Assembly: GCA_027625915.1 (NCBI GenBank)
Contig: JANTQA010000029.1
Coordinates: forward strand, 1,550,001-1,614,000
Direction: 5' to 3'
Length of the DNA: 64,000 nt
Origin: Anaeramoeba flamelloides
Taxonomy: Eukaryota; Metamonada; Anaeramoebidae
Each line of letters starts with the position of its first letter. Position 1 is the first letter of the stretch. The notes beneath the pieces are model-generated. The model was not told the DNA's origin and did not search any database. It saw only the letters and a program-made list of their open reading frames with translations. Shown in pieces: positions 6,305-15,623 of this stretch. The translations under genes and the position numbers were made by a program.

Positions 6305-9300
6305 CTATAGATTGATTGATTCTTCCGAATTTTGTTGACTATGGGAGCCGCAATTGGAAAATAGATCGTCCTTACATATTTCAAGATATTGAGAGTTAGT
6401 CAATTTCCGAGAAATTTTTTTTTGTGTTTGATTACCATAGGCAGATTGTGGAGAAAATGATAATTGTTCAATTATGGAATGTTTAATATCAAGGCTATTA
6501 ATTTGATTGTGTCCAAGCTTTTTCTTCGTATTACTGCTGTTGCTATGAGATTTGGATTGGGTTTTGGATTGTAATTGTAATTTTGATTGTGGTTGCGGTT
6601 GGGTTTGGGTTTGGGTTTGGGTTTGGGTTTGGGAGAGATTAATATTAGGATTGGAATTTTGATCGATTTTTTGATTTTCACTATTAAATAGTCTCTTTCG
6701 AGAGCTTTGTAGTGAATATATGTTCATCAATTTCTTATTGAAATGTTTTTTTGGATTAGAATTATAATCACCCAAAATATTTTTAGATTTTGGGTTTGGT
6801 GTTAAAGATTTGAAAAAATATTTTTGTTTACAATTATTGTTGTTGTTGTTATTATTATTATTATTATTATTTGAAAAAAATTGATAATGGGTAATTAATG
6901 AGTTTTTTCTAAAAAGGAGTGGAAATTGCCTTGGTACTTTATTTCTACTTTTTTCCGACATATCTAAATTAATTAATTTTGGATAATTTTGATTCTCTTT
7001 ATTTACTAAATTTACAAATGTATTGTTAATATTCCTTTGTTGGTTGTTATCTTTAACTTTATATTTGTGTTTATGATTAATTTTACAATCTAAAAATTTG
7101 GAATTTTCATTTTTCTCATTTTTATTAAATTTATTGAAAACATTTTTTGAATCTAGCTCGAATTCTAAATCAGATTGATCAGATTCATTTGATTCGTCAG
7201 ATTCATTGGATTCATTGGATTCATTAGAAAAAGATCTAAAACGAGACAATGATTTTGATTTTGATTGCAAATTAAAATCATCTTCTGATTCGAATCCTGA
7301 TTCTTCTTCATATTCGATTTTTTCTTCATATTCAATTCCTTCTTCTTCATATTTTGTTTCGATTTTCTTTATTTTAAGATTATTTTTATTTACATTACTT
7401 TCATTTGGTAAACAGTTTATTTTTTTACCATTTTTTAAATCAACTAATAAAGATTCAAGATTTGTTGAAGGATGAATTCGATCATTTTCAGAAAGAAGAT
7501 CTTTATAATCAGTTTCTTCTTCTTCTATTTCCTTTTCTTTCTTTTTTTCTATTATTTCTTCTTTTTTTAGTTTCTTATTTTCTTCTTGATCTTCATTTTT
7601 ATTTTTTATTTGTTTATTATTTTTCTTTTTATTAAAAACAATTTTTTTTTTGTTAATTTTTTTACAAATATTTGTTTCGTTCTTGTTTCTTTTTTTTATT
7701 TGTATATTAATTTTTTTTTTTTTTTTCTTCTTCTTTTTTAAAGAATTTGATGGGTTTTTTAATTTTCTTTTTTCTTTTTCTTTTCCTTTTCCTTTTCCTT
7801 TTCCTTTTCCTTTTTCTTTTCCTTTTTCTGTTCCTTTTTCTTTTCCTTTTTCTGTTCCTTTTTCTTTTCCTTTTCCTTTTCCTTTGAATATTGCTATTGG
7901 TTTTTCTTTAATATTTGTTGTTTGTATCTGATTTTTTCTTTTTTTTCGAGTTTTAAGTCTTTTCTTTTTATAATTTTTAATTGAAGTGTTAAATCTTAAT
8001 TTAATTTTTTTTTTTTGTGGCGTATATAAAATTGAAGATGTTTTGGTGGTTTTATTCTTTCGATTTTTTCTAGTTTTTGTTTTTTTCTTCTTTTTTTTCT
8101 TGTTTTTTTTTGAATGAGATAATTTTTTTGAATTTTTTTTTAATTCTTCTGGGAATCTTTTTTTTAATGTTGTATTCCATCTGTTTTTAATTACATTATC
8201 TGGTCTTCCAGGTAAAGCTTTTTTAATTTTTGACCATTGGTTCCCAAATATTTTATGCTGTGCTATTAATATACTGTCTTCTTCTTCTCTCCATAGACCA
8301 TGATCAATAGATGGATCTAATTGATTTTTCCATCTATTTAAAAAAATCATTAACACATATACACATATAATTATAAATTTTAAATATTGAATTAATTAAT
8401 ATTATTTTTTAAATTTCTCTTTATTATTTTTTATTATTTTTCTATACAAAAAATCAAAAAAGACTTGAAAGAAATAATTTCTTTTTTTTTTTATTTTATA
8501 TCTTGGAATCATTAGGATTATTGAAATTATTTATCAAATAATTCGACTATGATTTTTTTTTTTTTTATTATATACAGTTATATTCAAATTAAAAATATTT
8601 TATTTTTTCCAAAGTTCAATAATGTTGTGCTACCTTTTAAGAAATCTCTAAAATTTTAATTTTTATCTTGATTGTGTGAAGATCTTTGTGTTTTTTCTTT
8701 GAATTTTGATTAAACACGATTTGGGTAATTGAAATAAAATGTTTCATTTATTAATTGGAAAATGGCAGTATCTTACAAAGTATATATAAGATAAGTGTTT
8801 AAGATAAGGTAAATATAAGGTGGTGGATTTTAAAGATTTTTTCAAATTTGATTAAAATGTAAATTTTTTTTTTTTTATACTTTTTTCCTTTTCCAAATTT
8901 CCCTTCTTGGGTTTCTTGGGTTTCTTGGGTTCCTTTGGTTCCTTTGGTTCCTCCTCTTTTTGTTTTTTTGGGTGTTTGGGGCAGGTAAAAGGAAAAAAAT
9001 CATTATAAGAATTGGTTGATTTGGTCATGACTAACCTAAACAAGCCTGTCCATGATCAGATCTTCAACGAATTGAACTGTACTTATGCAACTGAAGAAAA
9101 CTGAATCCAACGAATGCGATCTGAAACCAACCACGGTGAACGGAATTGAAATTTCTGTACTATTTGTCGAGTCGTTACTTGGACTAGGTTTTTGCTGTCA
9201 AGTCGGTATCTTTGACTGGGATTTTGGGAAAACAAGATTTGGGAAACTTTCCAAAAAAAAAAAAATAAAATAAAATAAAAAAAAATAGCAAACAAACAAA

Positions 9301-12300
9301 CTAAAAGAAAATTTCAAAAAACAAAATCTTATTCTTAAAACCTTAGCACTTTATAGATTCAACCCATCTATAAATTTATAATTTAAAACTTAATAAAGTA
9401 ACAGATTTCATTTGATCTATAGTTGTTCAAATATTTAGAACTCTTTATTAAAACAAATTATTATGGTGTTCAATAAATTTTCGTCATAAAAAAAAACAAC
9501 CACCAACCCATTCAACACTTGGGGTACAAAAAAAAACTTTTCTTTTTTATTTTTTTAATCTCTTTTATTTCTTCTCTTTCTTTCATTTCTTTCTTTTCTT
9601 TCTTTTTTTCATGTCTTTTATTTAAAAATAAAGTTTTTCTTTTCATTTTTTAAAAGAAAAGCTATTCTATAAGATTTACCCTTATTTATATTATAGTTAG
9701 AATAAAAAACTATAAATAAAATTTTAGTGTTTCAGTAAGTGCCGTAGGGTGCCGTAGAGTGCCTAGCTTTTCCAGAATTGAATAGAATGGAGAAAAATCA
9801 CAGATTTAACTTAATTATTTTCAATTCTGGAAAAGCTAACGGCGGTTTTTTTTAATTTTTCAAATGAACAGAAATAAAAAACCTAACTGTACCTTTCTTG
9901 AGTTTTTCTGTTTTATTTGTTAAGTGTTCTAGGTTTTTTTGAGGTTTTCCAAATAAATAGAAAACTCAAAAAAACCTAACGAAAATCTATAGATTTTACA
10001 AATAAACAGAAAACTCAAGAAAATCTAACGGCATACATGAGGTAATTTTGTTGAGTCGCCTCTCTTTTATAATAAAAAATAAATAAAAAATGTAAATTTA
10101 TTTCATTGTGATTTTAATGACATTTATAAATTCACTATCTATCAAGACCTAGCTTCATTGTGTTGGTACTATTTTTTTTTTTTTTCGGTTTCGGCTTGTT
10201 TGAAACTTTATAATAATAAAACTTTTTAAATTAAAAATTATAACATAATAAGTCTAATCCCACCAGCAGATAAATTCTCGAAATTTTTAATCACATATAA
10301 TATGAATATATAATTAAATTTCGTTTTTTATCAAAGATTGGGATTTGTATATTTGATTATGTGTGGAATTTATGGTTGGACTAGTTCTTTAAGGAATTTA
10401 TTAATATGATTTGACAAATGGAAATTAGTTTTTTTTTTTTTTTATTTATTTACTTCTCTATTTATGAATCTTATGACATTTTTTTTTTGAAGAATATCAT
10501 CTTTAAAATTTTATATTCGTTTATTGAGTGGTTTTCTCATTTTGACTTTTGGAATAAATATCTTTAAATTGTGTAAGAAGTCAGACCATTTCTTTTTAAC
10601 TTTAATGTTATTTACACTTTTATTTGTGTTTCTAATCGTGTAATAGGTTGAAATTAATGTTATTTATTATAAGACTTATACTTGGTATTTCAAGCTGTAG
10701 TAAGTATTGAAAAGAAAGTCGTTTCCTACTTTTCAAAACATTTTTTTTTTAAATTACTATTTTGATTTTTCTTTTTTAAACAATTAAAATTTTCAGATTT
10801 TTATAGAATATAACAAAATAAACTGGATATTTAACTAGATAAAATTTGAATAAAGTTTAAAAGCAATTATAAAAAAAAAAATGTTTCAAAAATTGAGTTA
10901 TTTTTGTTTTTGGAACCTCAATACATTTCAAATCTATTTTTTAATATAATAGATTTTTCAGTGAGATTTAAAATTAATTTTTGATTTTTTCTTATTATAG
11001 TCATTTTAAAAAAGTGAAAACTTATTTTTTTTATGAGAATTTCAGAATTTAAAATATTTTTAAAGTTTTCTATTTTAATAAAATGAGGACTTTTTTTAAA
11101 ATAAAGTGCTTTCCTCCACACCTTAACCTCTGCCACCACATTTAAAGGTTGAGTATTCACTTTTTTAAAACAGAAAACTTTAAAAAAGTTTTCACTTTTT
11201 TATTTTTTATACTTTTTACCTTTTCCAAATTTCCCTTCTTAAGTTGCTTGGGCTCTATGTTCCTTCTCTTTTTGTTTTTTTAGGTGTTTGGGAAAGGTAA
11301 AAAGTATAAAAAATCATTATAAGAATTGGTTGACCTGATCATGACTAACCCAACCAAACTTGTTCATGATCAGATCTTCGACGAGGACTTATGCAACTGA
11401 ACTGAATCCAACGAATGCGATCTGAAACCAACCAAAGTGAACAGAATTGAACTTTCCGTACTATCTGTCGAGTCGTTACTTTGACTGGGTTTTTGCTGTC
11501 GAGTCGGTATCTTGTACTGGGATTTTGCGAAAACAAGATTTGGGAAACTTACAAAAAAAAAAAAAAAATAAAATAAAAAAAAAAATAATACAAAAAAAAA
11601 AAATAAAAAAGCAAAGCAACTGAAAAGAAAATTTCGAAAACCAAATCTTATTCTTAAAAACCAGAGCTTTTTAGATTCAACCCATCTATATAGTTCTAAA
11701 TCAAAATTTAATAAACAGCCTTTTTCATTTGATCTATAGTTGTTCAAATATTTAGAACTCTTTATTAAAACAACCTATGGTGGCGATCCAAAAAAAAAAA
11801 CGACATAAAAGGAAACAACCACCAGCCCATTCAACACTTGGGGCACAAAAAAAACTTTTCACTAAAGTTTTTAATGTTTTTCTATAATTTTTTGACTCTT
11901 TCATTTCTTGCTTTTCTTTCTCTTTTTCTTGTCTTTTTTCCGAAATAATTTATTCTTTTCATTTTTTAAAGAAAAGATATCCTTTGAGCTGTAATCCTGC
12001 TTACATTACAGTTAGGATAAAAAAACCCTAAATACAATTTTAGAGTTTCAGGCAAATAGGAGGTAATTTTGTTGAATCACCTCTGCTCAACAATAAAAAA
12101 AAAAAAAAAGTTTTCACTTTTTTAAAATTGTAAACTGAATAAAAGTTTTAAAAAAGTATCACTTTTTTAAAACGACTGTATTTTTAATTTTAACTAATAT
12201 TTTAATATTAAGTCTCAAATCGTTTAATAATTTAAAATTTATTTTTATTATTTTTAGTTGTTAGATCCTTAATTTTGAAAGTTAAATCGATTGTTTAATT

Positions 12301-14070
12301 TAATGCTATTTGATAAAAAATTGATTTTTCAGAGATATTTTGGAAGAAATTTTTGATAATTTTAAATTATATCTTTTTCAGAATTGGTTTTTCCATTAAT
12401 AAGAACAGAGTTTAAAAAAAAATTGCTTTCGAATGATTTATGAATAAACCATAAAAGTATTGGTTCTGAAAGTTATAAATTTTATGAGATGAATAGCTAA
12501 AAAAAAATGAATTTTTTCGTATTTTTTGGTTTGCTGGAGGAGTGTTCTAATTTGATGTTCTTTGGGGTGGTGAAAGGCAATACATTGGTATGTAAAGCTG
12601 ATTTAAAAGTCGGCAAATTAAAGGAAAGACAAAAAAAAAAAGAAAATACTGAAATTTTATGGAATTTTTGGTTTTTTCAGGAAAATTAAAAAAAAACATT
12701 TATTGCTACAACAACTTTTCGAAATTCTTGAAAAAAAACAAAGTTAAATTAAATCAGTTTTTTTTACCTCTTGCTCCACTTACTTTCCACTTTATATTCA
12801 ACAAAGCATTTTCATTTTGTTTATTAACAAAAAAAATATTTATGCAAAAATTCCCAAAAAATAAAAATTGATCTGTTTAACAATTGATAATAAATTAATT
12901 GTACTCATTTTTAGCTACAATTCTATTTTTTGTCAAGTTTTATTACCTATTTACAAATTATTTATGAAAATGTTGTGAAAACAAGAGTAAAAAAATAAAA
13001 AGTTATATTGCTTTAAACACTTTATTAAATCCGAACAAGTAGTCTAGAAATTTTGTTGACGTTAAAATCACAAATAAATTCTTTTTGTGAAATTATTATT
13101 CTGTTTTTGTGACTAGTTTTTGAAAAGGAAATCTCAAAAGCTACACAGGTGTAAATAAGGAATGTTGTAAAAAATAGGGTTTTTTACAATTTTAGGGATA
13201 AATAAAGAGTTCCCTGTATTTATCCAAATTTTGGTAATAGTAAATATAATATCTGATTATCTTAATAGACTAATAACAATTTTCATCAAAAAATCGTTTG
13301 GCAAACAACAATCTTTCAAATTTAAAAATAAAATCATTTTTCAAACAAAGTATTGGTATTTGCCAAACGATTTTATATTGAAAATCCCTTTGAGATCAAA
13401 AATCAAAACGGACGTTTTGTTTACTATAAATAAAATTTGGACAAATACATGGAACTCTTTATTTATCCCTAAAATTGTAAAAACTCTATTTTTTACAACA
13501 CTCCTTATTTACACTTGTGCCAAGGTAAACTTCGAATTTGGATTTGTGAAAATGTTTGACCCCAAATAAACAAATTTTTCGAAAAAACCCTTAAATCATA
13601 AATTTCAACAAGAACTCTTGGCTAAACATTCTTTTAAGTCATAAATATGTTGTTGGTTATAAAAGTAATCTGACTAAAAACATAAAATTCGGATAATCCT
13701 GAAAGTTTACAATTAAAATTTACATAATTACAATTAAAATAATCTACATTAAGGATCAGAATGAAATTGAATCAGAAATTCAATAAATTATTTTTAAATT
13801 CTTGACTGAAGTTTGGTTCGTTCAAAAAAAACAGGCTGAATATTCTAGAAAATATAAAAGGAAAAAAAAAAAAAATAAAAAAAAATAAAAATTCAACAAC
13901 TAACCTTTCTCTGCATTGTTTGGCTGTTCTTCCAGGGACTAAGAGGGATACTTGAGGCCATGACTGGCCATGGGTTTTTACTCCTTGTTTGAGAAATTGA
14001 TCTTCTTCTTTCGACCAAGATCCTTTTTTTAATTTTGGATCCAAAACCTTGAAGGGGTAAAAACAAACAC

Positions 14071-14101
<31 letters not shown>

Positions 14102-15623
14102 ATTTTTAAGGGGTGTAAATATATGCTTAAAAAAAGAAAAAGAAAATCTTGTCGGCAAAAAAAAGAAAAAATTCCAAATCAAAGTATCTCAAAATAAAAA
14201 AGAAAAAAAGAAGAAAGTTTAAAACAAAAAATACCTTTTTCCATCTATGCAAACATTGCGTCGAACTTTTATTTGGGAACAGATCTGCAACTAAATCCCA
14301 GTCTTTACCGCCAAAGTGTTTTACTGCTTTTGCAAGAATACCATCCTTTTGAGGTGTAAAAAAGGTAAATACAAAATTGAAATAAGGAGATAAAAAAGGG
14401 AATAAATGAGTAAAGAAAAATTCAACGAATTTCATCAAATTAAGAAATTTTTTGATAGTGTTTGTCAATAAAAAAACCCAGTCAGTGCCCCAAATGCATG
14501 GGAGCGAAGAAAATTAAAAATACAAGAAGGTAATCCTTTTTTAACATCAAAATATTTAATTCAATAAATAAATTTTTTGTTTTCAAAGGATTTGTAAGGT
14601 TACAAAGAGAAGAAAAGAATTAAAATGGAGGGGGGGTGTTGGAGAAAAATACAACAGTTTAACTTTTTGAGAAAAGAAAAAAAAAAAAGAAAGCCTCAAA
14701 AAGAGCTTTTCAAGAAAGGATTTTAAAAAAAAAGGAACAAAAAACAAAAATTTTAAAATAAAAAGAAGAGACAGAAAGTGTTTATTTTTCAAAAACAAAC
14801 ACACTTGAATTTTTGAAAAGAAAAATATCCCAGATGGTTTATTTAGTTCAAACAAAAAAAAAAAAAACAAATCAAAAAAAAATTGGGATTAAAAAAAAAC
14901 ACCAATAATAAATGAAATAAGAATTTCATGAATGAATTGAAGATTAAAAAAAGAGATTTTGGATGTACAGAAAGAAGGGTATGCAAGGATAAGATTTCTC
15001 GTGAAAAAAGAAAAAGAGTCAAAGGAGAATGATAAAAATGAATAAAAAACATAAAAAAAAAAGAAACTAAAATAAAAAATCTTTATGTTAATAGTGTGCT
15101 GAGTTTAAATTACCAATAAACAAAAGAAAGTGGGTTAAATAATAAAACTTACTTCTTTTTGAGACCATATTGATGTTTTGATATGCTTCACGGTTGCTAA
15201 ATCCGGCACTTCTTTAATTTTGTTGAGTAATTGTTTGATCTTTTTTTTTCGATCACTAATTAAGAAGAAATTATCAAAAAAAAAAAAAAATTTAGAATCA
15301 GAACGGGGATGGTACATTTTATAGTTAAACGATTACATTTTTTTTAAAAAAATAGAAAAAGAATATAGGAACAATGGAGAATTAATTTATCACAAAAACA
15401 AGGAACTTCTTTGCTGTTTTGGGACCAGAAAGGAGTCTTGGTTTAGTTTTCCAGAAAAGAAAAAAGAAAAATTCAAGCAGAAAAGTACTAAAAAAAATCA
15501 AAAAAAAAAAAAACAATTTTAATGCTAAAAGAACAAAAAAAGAAGGTTCAGAAAGGAAGAGTGTGTAGTTTAAAGAAGAAAAAGATATAAGAATTGAAAA
15601 TTGTGCACTTACGAAGAGGACAT
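6305..15623 (-). CDS. Three-repeat (R1R2R3) Myb transcription factor with a 5.6-kb intron
   Basis: This is a c-Myb/MYB3R-type DNA-binding protein, predicted nuclear, of 798 residues. Exons are 15613-15623, 15153-15255, 14235-14345, 13905-14047 and 6305-8333, with introns of 357, 807, 187 and 5571 bases. The 11-base first coding exon (ATGTCCTCTTC) gives M-S-S-S and splices in phase. Three Myb repeats follow with all nine tryptophans at residues 35/54/73, 86/105/124 and 137/156/175. Every intra-repeat spacing is 19 and both inter-repeat steps are 13. W124 lies just past the giant intron, whose junction splits an Arg codon (AG|A). Recognition-helix motifs include KQCRERW in R2 and DNVIKNRW in R3. 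The remaining 600 residues are low complexity: Lys/Glu-rich blocks, a GKGKEKG tract, an Asn run, a Gln-rich stretch and acidic Ser patches. It ends with TAG. The intron phases and tryptophan periodicity make the model strong. Confidence 0.9.
8867..10086 (+). mobile_element. Retroposon copy 1 (poly-A-type, about 920 bases plus a 295-base insertion)
   Basis: This copy matches the one at 11203-12103 along its whole length, starting at the same 5' sequence (TTTTATACTTTTT, then CCTTTTCCAAATTTCCC). It ends in a degenerate A-rich tail. The target-site duplication AAAATGTAAATTT occurs at 8854-8866 and 10087-10099. That pattern fits LINE-type or SINE-type retroposition. Conserved internal blocks include GAATCCAACGAATGCGATC, an imperfect tandem of about 31 bases built on GTCGAGTCG, and TTCAACACTTGGGG. 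I see no reverse transcriptase or clear Pol III boxes, so it is a non-autonomous retroposon or a retrocopied RNA. It is interrupted at 9738-10032 by a foldback element. Confidence 0.8.
9738..10032. mobile_element. Foldback repeat, AGTGCC family, inserted in retroposon copy 1
   Basis: This 295-base insertion is flanked by TA on both sides (9736-9737 and 10033-10034). It is absent from the otherwise collinear sister retroposon at about 12041-12065, which supplies the empty site. The left end is an array of 10-base units (GTGCCGTAGG, GTGCCGTAGA, GTGCC). The right end read inward is TGCCGTTAGATT, giving a short TGCCGT inverted terminus. Inside are a hairpin with CTTTTCCAGAATTGAAT arms, and repeats of AAATAAACAGAAAA and AACCTAACGAAAATCTAT. 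It has no coding capacity. Confidence 0.8.
11203..12103 (+). mobile_element. Retroposon copy 2 (poly-A-type, 0.9 kb, apparently full length)
   Basis: The element ends in CAATA followed by a run of about 15 A. It is flanked by a 21-base target-site duplication with core AGTTTTCACTTTTTTA, at 11182-11202 and 12104-12124. The first 110 bases contain a stem: ATACTTTTTACCTTTTCC at 11209 pairs with GGGAAAGGTAAAAAGTAT ending at about 11308. A second small palindrome, TGATCATGA/TCATGATCA, lies near 11335-11372. Copies 1 and 2 share most positions by eye, with several base changes and small indels. The insertion target was itself an AT-rich inverted repeat (TTCACTTTTTTAAAAC around 11154, complement around 12140). 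A related fragment occurs at about 53205-53400. Confidence 0.85.
13142..13527. mobile_element. Palindromic Tc1/mariner-like MITE (386 bases)
   Basis: Left and right arms are nearly perfect inverted copies for more than 80 bases. The left starts TACACAGGTGTAAATAAGGA and the right, read inward, starts TACCTTGGCACAAGTGTAAATAAGGA. Both continue through TTGTAAAAAATAG, TACAATTTTAGGGATAAATA and AAGAGTTCC. An inner pair built on AAAATCGTTTGGCAAA (13289 and its complement at about 13358) extends the symmetry almost to the centre. The TA at each end fits a TA target site. The long reading frame at 13231-13569 is a by-product of the palindrome and not a gene. Confidence 0.8.

Follow-up and report, generated by a model that had tools for sequence, protein, structure and literature searches.

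An abundant retroposon family of Anaeramoeba flamelloides with a terminal 5′ hairpin and an apparently LINE-related 3′ tail

Two retroposon copies in a Myb-gene intron

The 64-kb stretch of Anaeramoeba flamelloides DNA analysed here (hereafter the window; G000:C29:1550001-1614000 in a 254-Mb genome of 76 contigs) holds gene fragments of eukaryotic character (ribosomal S13, Myb, myotubularin, JAB and Sec7/BIG; 10 of 16 frames searched), with glutamate/lysine- and asparagine-rich proteins suggestive of Anaeramoeba, and, within one intron of the Myb gene, two copies of a retroposon family, A and B, which are the subject of this report (Table 1). The Myb repeats R2 and R3 lie in minus-strand frames at 13772-14188 and 6305-8395, and their exons can be joined as ..CRE-R-W-KNQL with a GTTAGT donor and a TAG acceptor. 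This joining delimits an intron of about 5.57 kb (approximately 13904 to 8334) with GT-AG ends, in which both copies lie antisense, and bears out a preliminary description of this DNA that had placed two copies of a poly-A retroposon in a single intron.

Copies A and B align in blocks, mostly at 72-89% identity. The common 5′ start, the A-rich tails and the distinct target-site duplications (13 bp in A, 21 bp in B) are confirmed; the duplications had been read as proof of two independent insertions. The final A of the 5′-side duplication of copy B (11182-11202) is possibly the first base of the element instead. The proposed size of 0.9 kb holds for the young subfamily, to which copy B belongs, but not for the older type represented by copy A (1.2 kb), which has some 300 extra bases (approximately 9737-10030) formed by an array of fold-back modules. 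In both copies an internal A-rich tract (11553-11612; 9253-9288) divides the element into two halves, an arrangement that may be compared with dimeric short interspersed nuclear elements (SINEs).

Family size, ends and mode of insertion

The preliminary description had proposed a genome-wide count of copies. At up to two mismatches, the 3′ motif was found at 720 genomic places (369 + 351) and the 5′ motif at 491 (262 + 229), with no place returned by either reversed-pattern control. In the first 30 exact 3′-motif places by coordinate, a 5′ end lies within 1500 bases in 23; at one of the other seven (L064) the available sequence ends. Among the best 40 of 2870 candidates for copy B, one being copy B itself, identity to it in the remaining 39 is 95-98%; 37 of these span the query from base 1 or 2 to base 900 or 901, and two begin at query 54 with a rearranged 5′ end. 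For copy A (best 40 of 7045 candidates) identity is 77-83% among the main relatives and 69% in one additional long row.

For closer comparison we used 54 copies, a subset of 68 loci, with both end motifs, enough flank and duplicates removed; 38 of the 68 loci had entered through likeness to copy A or B, and copies whose ends have changed strongly, such as window copy A, are not in the set. The length between end motifs is 0.85-0.90 kb in 42 copies and 0.94-1.59 kb in 12. The 42 short copies share a median pairwise identity of 97.6% (range 91.9-99.9%), which suggests a recent burst. The exact 24-base 3′ motif occurred in no viral contig and in no contig of the prokaryote collection, two sets from which records of this genome were possibly excluded. 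A literature search found no account of Anaeramoeba retrotransposons or transposable elements, or of metamonad SINEs or long interspersed nuclear elements (LINEs), although absence from print is not thereby shown.

Other copies without common ends, tail or duplications, which the preliminary description regarded as fatal to its proposal, were looked for, and the proposal withstood this check: the motif counts show common ends, and the set has an A-rich tail after the 3′ hairpin in all 54 copies and a duplication score of at least 11 in 44 of 54, as against 18 of 270 mismatched-flank pairs. Exact duplications of at least 10 bp are present in 40 copies (median 17 bp, range 10-28, the longest A-rich); 29 of these 40 end in TTTT and 19 start with AAAA. 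The leading A's are possibly part of the tail, and the trailing T's part of the element. Truncated copies with duplications were also recovered, L060 matching the last 155 nucleotides of the element and L059 the last 50, while L043 is 5′-truncated with a shorter duplication. Variable duplications, an A-rich 3′ tail and 5′ truncation, the marks by which target-primed reverse transcription is recognised, are all found, as expected of this mode of insertion.

The element starts with ATTTTTTATACTTTTTACC, a stretch whose full complement recurs in copy B 94 bases on (start to start). The hairpin so formed has a minimum free energy of -36.5 kcal/mol (z -8.7), which none of 200 shuffles equals. In 51 of the 54 genomic copies, copy B included, at least 15 of the outer 19 pairs are kept (the exceptions being L039, L045 and L063), with a median z of about -7 under a rough control, the shuffles for this set and for the reading frames considered below being of the dinucleotide-block kind and not exactly dinucleotide-preserving. 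The 5′ stem first noticed in the window is therefore real and kept in most copies examined; in copy B it proves longer (29 bp) than had been stated, and in copy A it has decayed. Its second arm is exactly GGTAAAAAGTATAAAAAAT, pairing perfectly, in 30 of the 42 short (young-type) copies and in none of the 12 longer ones; six of the latter and three short copies (L019, L047 and L068) have GGTAAAAGGAAT instead, two mismatches away, and the arm elsewhere is a variant of one or the other. The mismatched state is probably the older, because it is found in the more diverged copies.

The absence of a reverse transcriptase (RT) frame and of a clear RNA polymerase III (Pol III) promoter, reported at the outset, stands. 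The sole frame of at least 120 amino acids (aa) overlapping either copy is at 11370-11774 on the minus strand (134 aa; library search not made). The longest frame of each of the 42 short copies, which in 41 is on the minus strand, measures 85-156 aa; in shuffled sequences the median is 63 and the maximum 134. Because the copies are related and its length varies from copy to copy, we do not read this frame as a gene (selection was not tested), and a hidden protein in the element is not supported. ARAGORN detected no tRNA in the window, and no Rfam family reached its gathering score there. The 12 weak Rfam matches at E ≤ 5, of which eight are to microRNA families and nine lie within the fold-back array of copy A, include no tRNA, 5S or 7SL family (A- and B-box motifs alone were not scanned), and the best has E 0.0029 and 31 bits compared with a gathering score of 83; the hepatitis delta virus (HDV) ribozyme family is likewise absent for the region at either threshold. 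Many T-runs of five or more bases lie inside the element. With no tRNA and no gathering match, an origin of the head from a Pol III gene or a known RNA was dropped. SINEs have a length limit of about 0.6 kb, and since the element has no recognisable Pol III head and measures 0.85-1.59 kb it falls outside the strict definition.

The 3′ tail and the LINEs of the genome

The genome contains at least 150 matches to RVT_1, and the ends of LINEs were examined in three groups, here called LINE-X, LINE-Y and LINE-Z. LINE-X (L070, L073 and L074) has a terminus of the TTAACCCTTAGCAATAAA type, with RT present in L070 and L074 and an endonuclease match that exceeds the cut-off in L074 but falls short of it in L070, where a 1189-aa frame gives a strong RT match alongside the weak endonuclease one; L074 is 5′-truncated with the duplication AACCCTAATTTATT. 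LINE-Y (L075-L077) terminates in a hairpin followed by CAATAATAAAA or CAATAAAA, the stop codon of L075 sitting within the hairpin. LINE-Z comprises L053 and 14 further ends, with a terminus of GGAATTCGGGYMMAYAAGAGG.., a CCTC arm and an A-rich tail; all 14 further ends, when fetched, read GGAATTCGGGYMMAYAAGAGG..CTCCTC.. and then an A-rich end. The C-terminal segment of LINE-Z has at least 151 matches (150 of 9476 first-look candidates scored), a 46-aa query from L053 was assigned to no family with confidence, and a LINE-Z relative at C43 has a frame upstream of the RT that we take to be endonuclease-like from its GDFN and IDYF motifs. LINE-Y and LINE-Z seem to be nearly without a 3′ untranslated region, the hairpin overlapping or adjoining the last codons of the open reading frame (ORF); the frame ends were read in L075 and L053, and L081-L094 were judged by likeness.

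The terminus of the element is TTTCAGGCAAATAGGAGGTAATTTTGTTGAATCACCTCTGCTCAACAATAA plus A. Within it, GCA AAT AGG AGG TAA (12052-12066 in copy B) is in phase with the ORF end of LINE-Z, GIRANKRD* in L053, and a local alignment of the LINE-Z end lands on copy B's own 3′ end over 41 bases. For each of two LINE-Z ends an equal or better alignment was obtained with 1 of 1000 shuffles of copy B, and with 5 and 2 of 1000 when the LINE-Z ends were themselves shuffled. LINE-X was rejected as the source because its ends are not similar to that of the element: 1000 and 999 of 1000 shuffles aligned as well.

The 3′ hairpin was compared across 33 distinct ends, namely 18 of 30 element-type ends, 11 of 12 LINE-Z-type ends (L041 omitted), L084 and three LINE-Y ends. 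Its five-pair stem has 96.4% of cells paired and 22 cells changed on both sides, and its covariation is 0.462 as against 0.171 ± 0.028 in shuffled alignments, none of 500 shuffles reaching any of these values and slid versions attaining at most 0.256.

A further link between element and LINE-Z is provided by a tail-exchanged subfamily, in which the 3′ half of the hairpin and the tail have been replaced by those of LINE-Z. L027 follows the element up to ..TTTTGTTGAAT and continues with ACTCCTCCCTTAAATTACAATAA, the end of one LINE-Z subfamily (L085-L088 and L093) that occurs at 179 places at up to two mismatches (control 0). The exchange junction, GGTAATTTTGTTGAANACTCCTCC, was found at 12 places, 9 of them exact (control 0), and the three viewed (L027, C13 and C26) have both the 5′ end of the element and the LINE-Z end. 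The two copies fetched to examine their duplications have clean, separate ones (AAAAATATTTTAACTTTTT in C13, AAAAATTGATTTTTT in C26), while that of L027 is weak, being of A and T only, and was not detected in the 54-copy scan. Most simply read, one exchange took place and its product then spread, which suggests that a LINE-Z tail works for the element.

Apart from these matters, the fold-back modules of copy A (GTGCCGTAGAGTGCC.. CTTTTCCAGAATTC.. palindrome ..CCTAACGGC), seen also at L075, L076, L077 and L080, occur within older element copies and near LINE-Y copies, and in L076 the array terminates in a LINE-Z-type tail, which gives it the look of a second retroposon driven by LINE-Z.

Table 1 Retroposon copies, their parts and the host gene in the window
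Feature	Position	Strand	Remarks
Copy A	8867..10086	+	older subfamily member, 1.22 kb
Target-site duplication of copy A, 5′ side	8854..8866	+	AAAATGTAAATTT, 13 bp
Target-site duplication of copy A, 3′ side	10087..10099	+	AAAATGTAAATTT, 13 bp
5′ end of copy A	8870..9003	+	hairpin decayed, z -0.2
Fold-back module array, copy A	9737..10030	+	not in copy B; dispersed elsewhere, seen near LINE-Y copies
3′ hairpin, copy A	10039..10062	+	GAGGT...GCCTC
Copy B	11203..12103	+	young subfamily member
Target-site duplication of copy B, 5′ side	11182..11202	+	AAAAAAGTTTTCACTTTTTTA, 21 bp
Target-site duplication of copy B, 3′ side	12104..12124	+	AAAAAAGTTTTCACTTTTTTA, 21 bp
5′-terminal hairpin, copy B	11202..11314	+	arms 11202-11230 / 11286-11314, 29 bp
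Internal A-rich tract, copy B	11553..11612	+	counterpart in copy A at about 9253-9288
LINE-Z-like 3′ tail, copy B	12028..12093	+	scored alignment covers 12028-12068
3′ hairpin, copy B	12060..12083	+	GAGGT...ACCTC; common to LINE-Z and LINE-Y through compensatory change
Myb-gene intron holding copies A and B	8334..13904	-	boundaries by reading, to 1-2 bases
R1R2R3-type Myb gene	6305-14513	-	5.6-kb intron between R2 and R3

Mobilisation, alternatives and known systems

The family is most probably a non-autonomous, LINE-dependent SINE-like retroposon that is copied in trans by LINE-Z through its LINE-Z-related tail: a new family of a kind already known, set apart by a long, apparently non-Pol-III head with a terminal hairpin. 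The source of mobility, for which the preliminary description could offer no candidate, is thereby largely resolved, on support that is good though not experimental. As for the LINE with the same 3′ end that it proposed to look for, LINE-Z has a 3′ end that the element resembles and can exchange, but the exact tail donor was not found. The RNA of the element, probably made by RNA polymerase II, would begin at the 5′-terminal hairpin and end in the tail, consisting of the last ORF codons, the stop, the small hairpin and an AATAA-type end. The LINE-Z protein, an endonuclease and reverse transcriptase, would bind the tail hairpin in trans and nick the target at a T-run with which the A-tail would pair, and the element would be copied through target-primed reverse transcription. 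A second nick may follow after another T-run some 17 bp away, where top-strand TTTT could prime on the cDNA end; because the element starts with ATTTTTT, that end would read ...AAAAAAT, and such priming would favour full-length insertion. More tentatively, and with doubt prevailing, the 5′ hairpin might be the working part behind the success of the young subfamily, defining the RNA start, protecting the RNA and helping second-strand priming with ATTTTTT, to the benefit of mostly full-length insertions; it would then constitute a new kind of retroposon head in place of a Pol III promoter.

Several observations weigh against mobilisation by LINE-Z. Its likeness to the element by sequence alone is modest, and the match of the LINE-Y ends to that of the element is no more than chance would give (65 and 61 of 1000 shuffles). 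The search for a LINE with the element's exact tail was negative, the pattern giving five places, each with two mismatches; of the two read, L078 is an element 3′ end with no head in the stretch viewed and L080 a decayed element with no open frame, and neither contains a LINE. No full-length LINE-Z copy was seen, and the comparison with that group is one of 3′ ends. In the hairpin alignment the pairs were placed by eye and the rows chosen by hand, and two further measures are weaker, 21 of 500 shuffles having as many pairs changed on both sides (four of five) and 139 of 500 as many further pair types. The exchange places are not independent events, since the junction is identical in the exact places, and the exchange could have arisen through DNA recombination. 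By the score used, 10 of the 54 two-ended copies have no duplication.

If a relaxed, L1-like LINE copied the element and needed only its A-tail, the 3′ hairpin would be incidental. The A-runs that end all 54 copies agree with this, as does LINE-X, which also ends in CAATAAA and a short A-run and has a target-site duplication in L074; the 3′ hairpin covaries between the ends of element and LINEs, however, and LINE-Z-tailed copies have spread, both of which suggest that the tail matters, and we consider this alternative unlikely. Somewhat less probable still is an internally deleted LINE, comparable to NARTc/RIME or SIDE, in which one LINE gave both ends and lost its coding middle. In its favour is L069 (1788-5167), a single insertion with one 17-bp duplication in which the 5′ hairpin end of the element, a 649-aa RT frame and the element 3′ end are found together, L071 and L072 being of related make-up. 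The RT segment of L069 is, however, flanked by a 17-bp direct repeat and terminates like the 3′ end of LINE-X, and its homology to L070, L073 and L074 stops between a few and some thirty bases from the repeats. A rough check by eye of the first 100 of the 720 and of the 491 motif places against the 150 RVT_1 matches listed revealed no other same-strand pair of RT and element end. On the direct repeats and the LINE-X terminus we dropped L069 as an autonomous parent; it reads as a nested, 5′-truncated LINE-X insertion (3′ half) that later moved with the element. L071 and L072 share its LINE-X junction but are otherwise rearranged and occupy different sites, each with a duplication of its own that is shorter or less clear; the shared junction at these sites indicates that the element took the nested fragment along to new places. 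A DNA transposon or fold-back element, of which the 5′ inverted repeat would be a terminal repeat, might account for the long inverted repeat at one end and the fold-back modules of copy A, but both arms lie within 113 bases of the same end and the other end is an A-tail, duplication length varies (10-28 bp) and 5′-truncated copies exist, which leaves this reading scarcely credible.

Mobilisation by LINE-Z would add an abundant pair of a LINE and a SINE-like element in a eukaryote for which we found no description of mobile elements. With its exchanged tail, the LINE-Z-tailed subfamily offers a natural experiment on the choice of 3′ hairpin by the LINE. A design with a hairpin head, apparently without Pol III and mostly complete at the 5′ end, bears on second-strand synthesis and full-length insertion in LINE-driven retroposition.

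In general build the family resembles SVA of hominoids, a composite, non-coding, kilobase-sized and LINE-dependent element with an internal repeat array. The modules of the two are unrelated, and SVA is not known to have a LINE-derived hairpin tail of this kind.

Other parallels come from published systems. The Entamoeba elements EhLSINE1/ehapt2, EhLSINE2 and EdSINE1 are listed with heads of unknown origin and with LINE partners identified through the 3′ end (PMC3747384), and both a chimeric SINE and one nested within another SINE have been reported (PMC2657916). Like them, the present family belongs to a presumably amoeboid protist, is non-autonomous and combines a head of unknown origin with a LINE-paired 3′ end; their partners are listed as R4-1_ED and EhLINE/EhRLE (PMC3747384), whereas the LINE group here has an apurinic/apyrimidinic-type endonuclease-like segment, a distinction drawn by description. 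In stringent LINE/SINE pairs, such as those of zebrafish L2 and the plant and algal L1 clade, the partners have a common 3′ stem-loop with a variable stem, and SART1, stringent with poly(A), indicates that poly(A) is compatible with stringent recognition (PMC4176376; PMC3747384). The element and LINE-Z likewise have a 3′ stem-loop with a variable stem, as judged from sequence.

The trypanosomatid NARTc, RIME and SIDER are non-autonomous LINE relatives with a functional, structured 5′ end (PMC4035085). Our element is similarly non-autonomous with a structured 5′ end; the 5′ Pr77 of the trypanosomatid elements, common to them and the LINE, can act as an HDV-like ribozyme (PMC4035085), whereas no HDV family match was listed for the region of the element. 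Among passerine SINEs, one gained a new tRNA head, for which template switching has been proposed (PMC5729268). There the head was changed and here the tail, and both represent the chimeric renewal of a LINE-mobilised retroposon.

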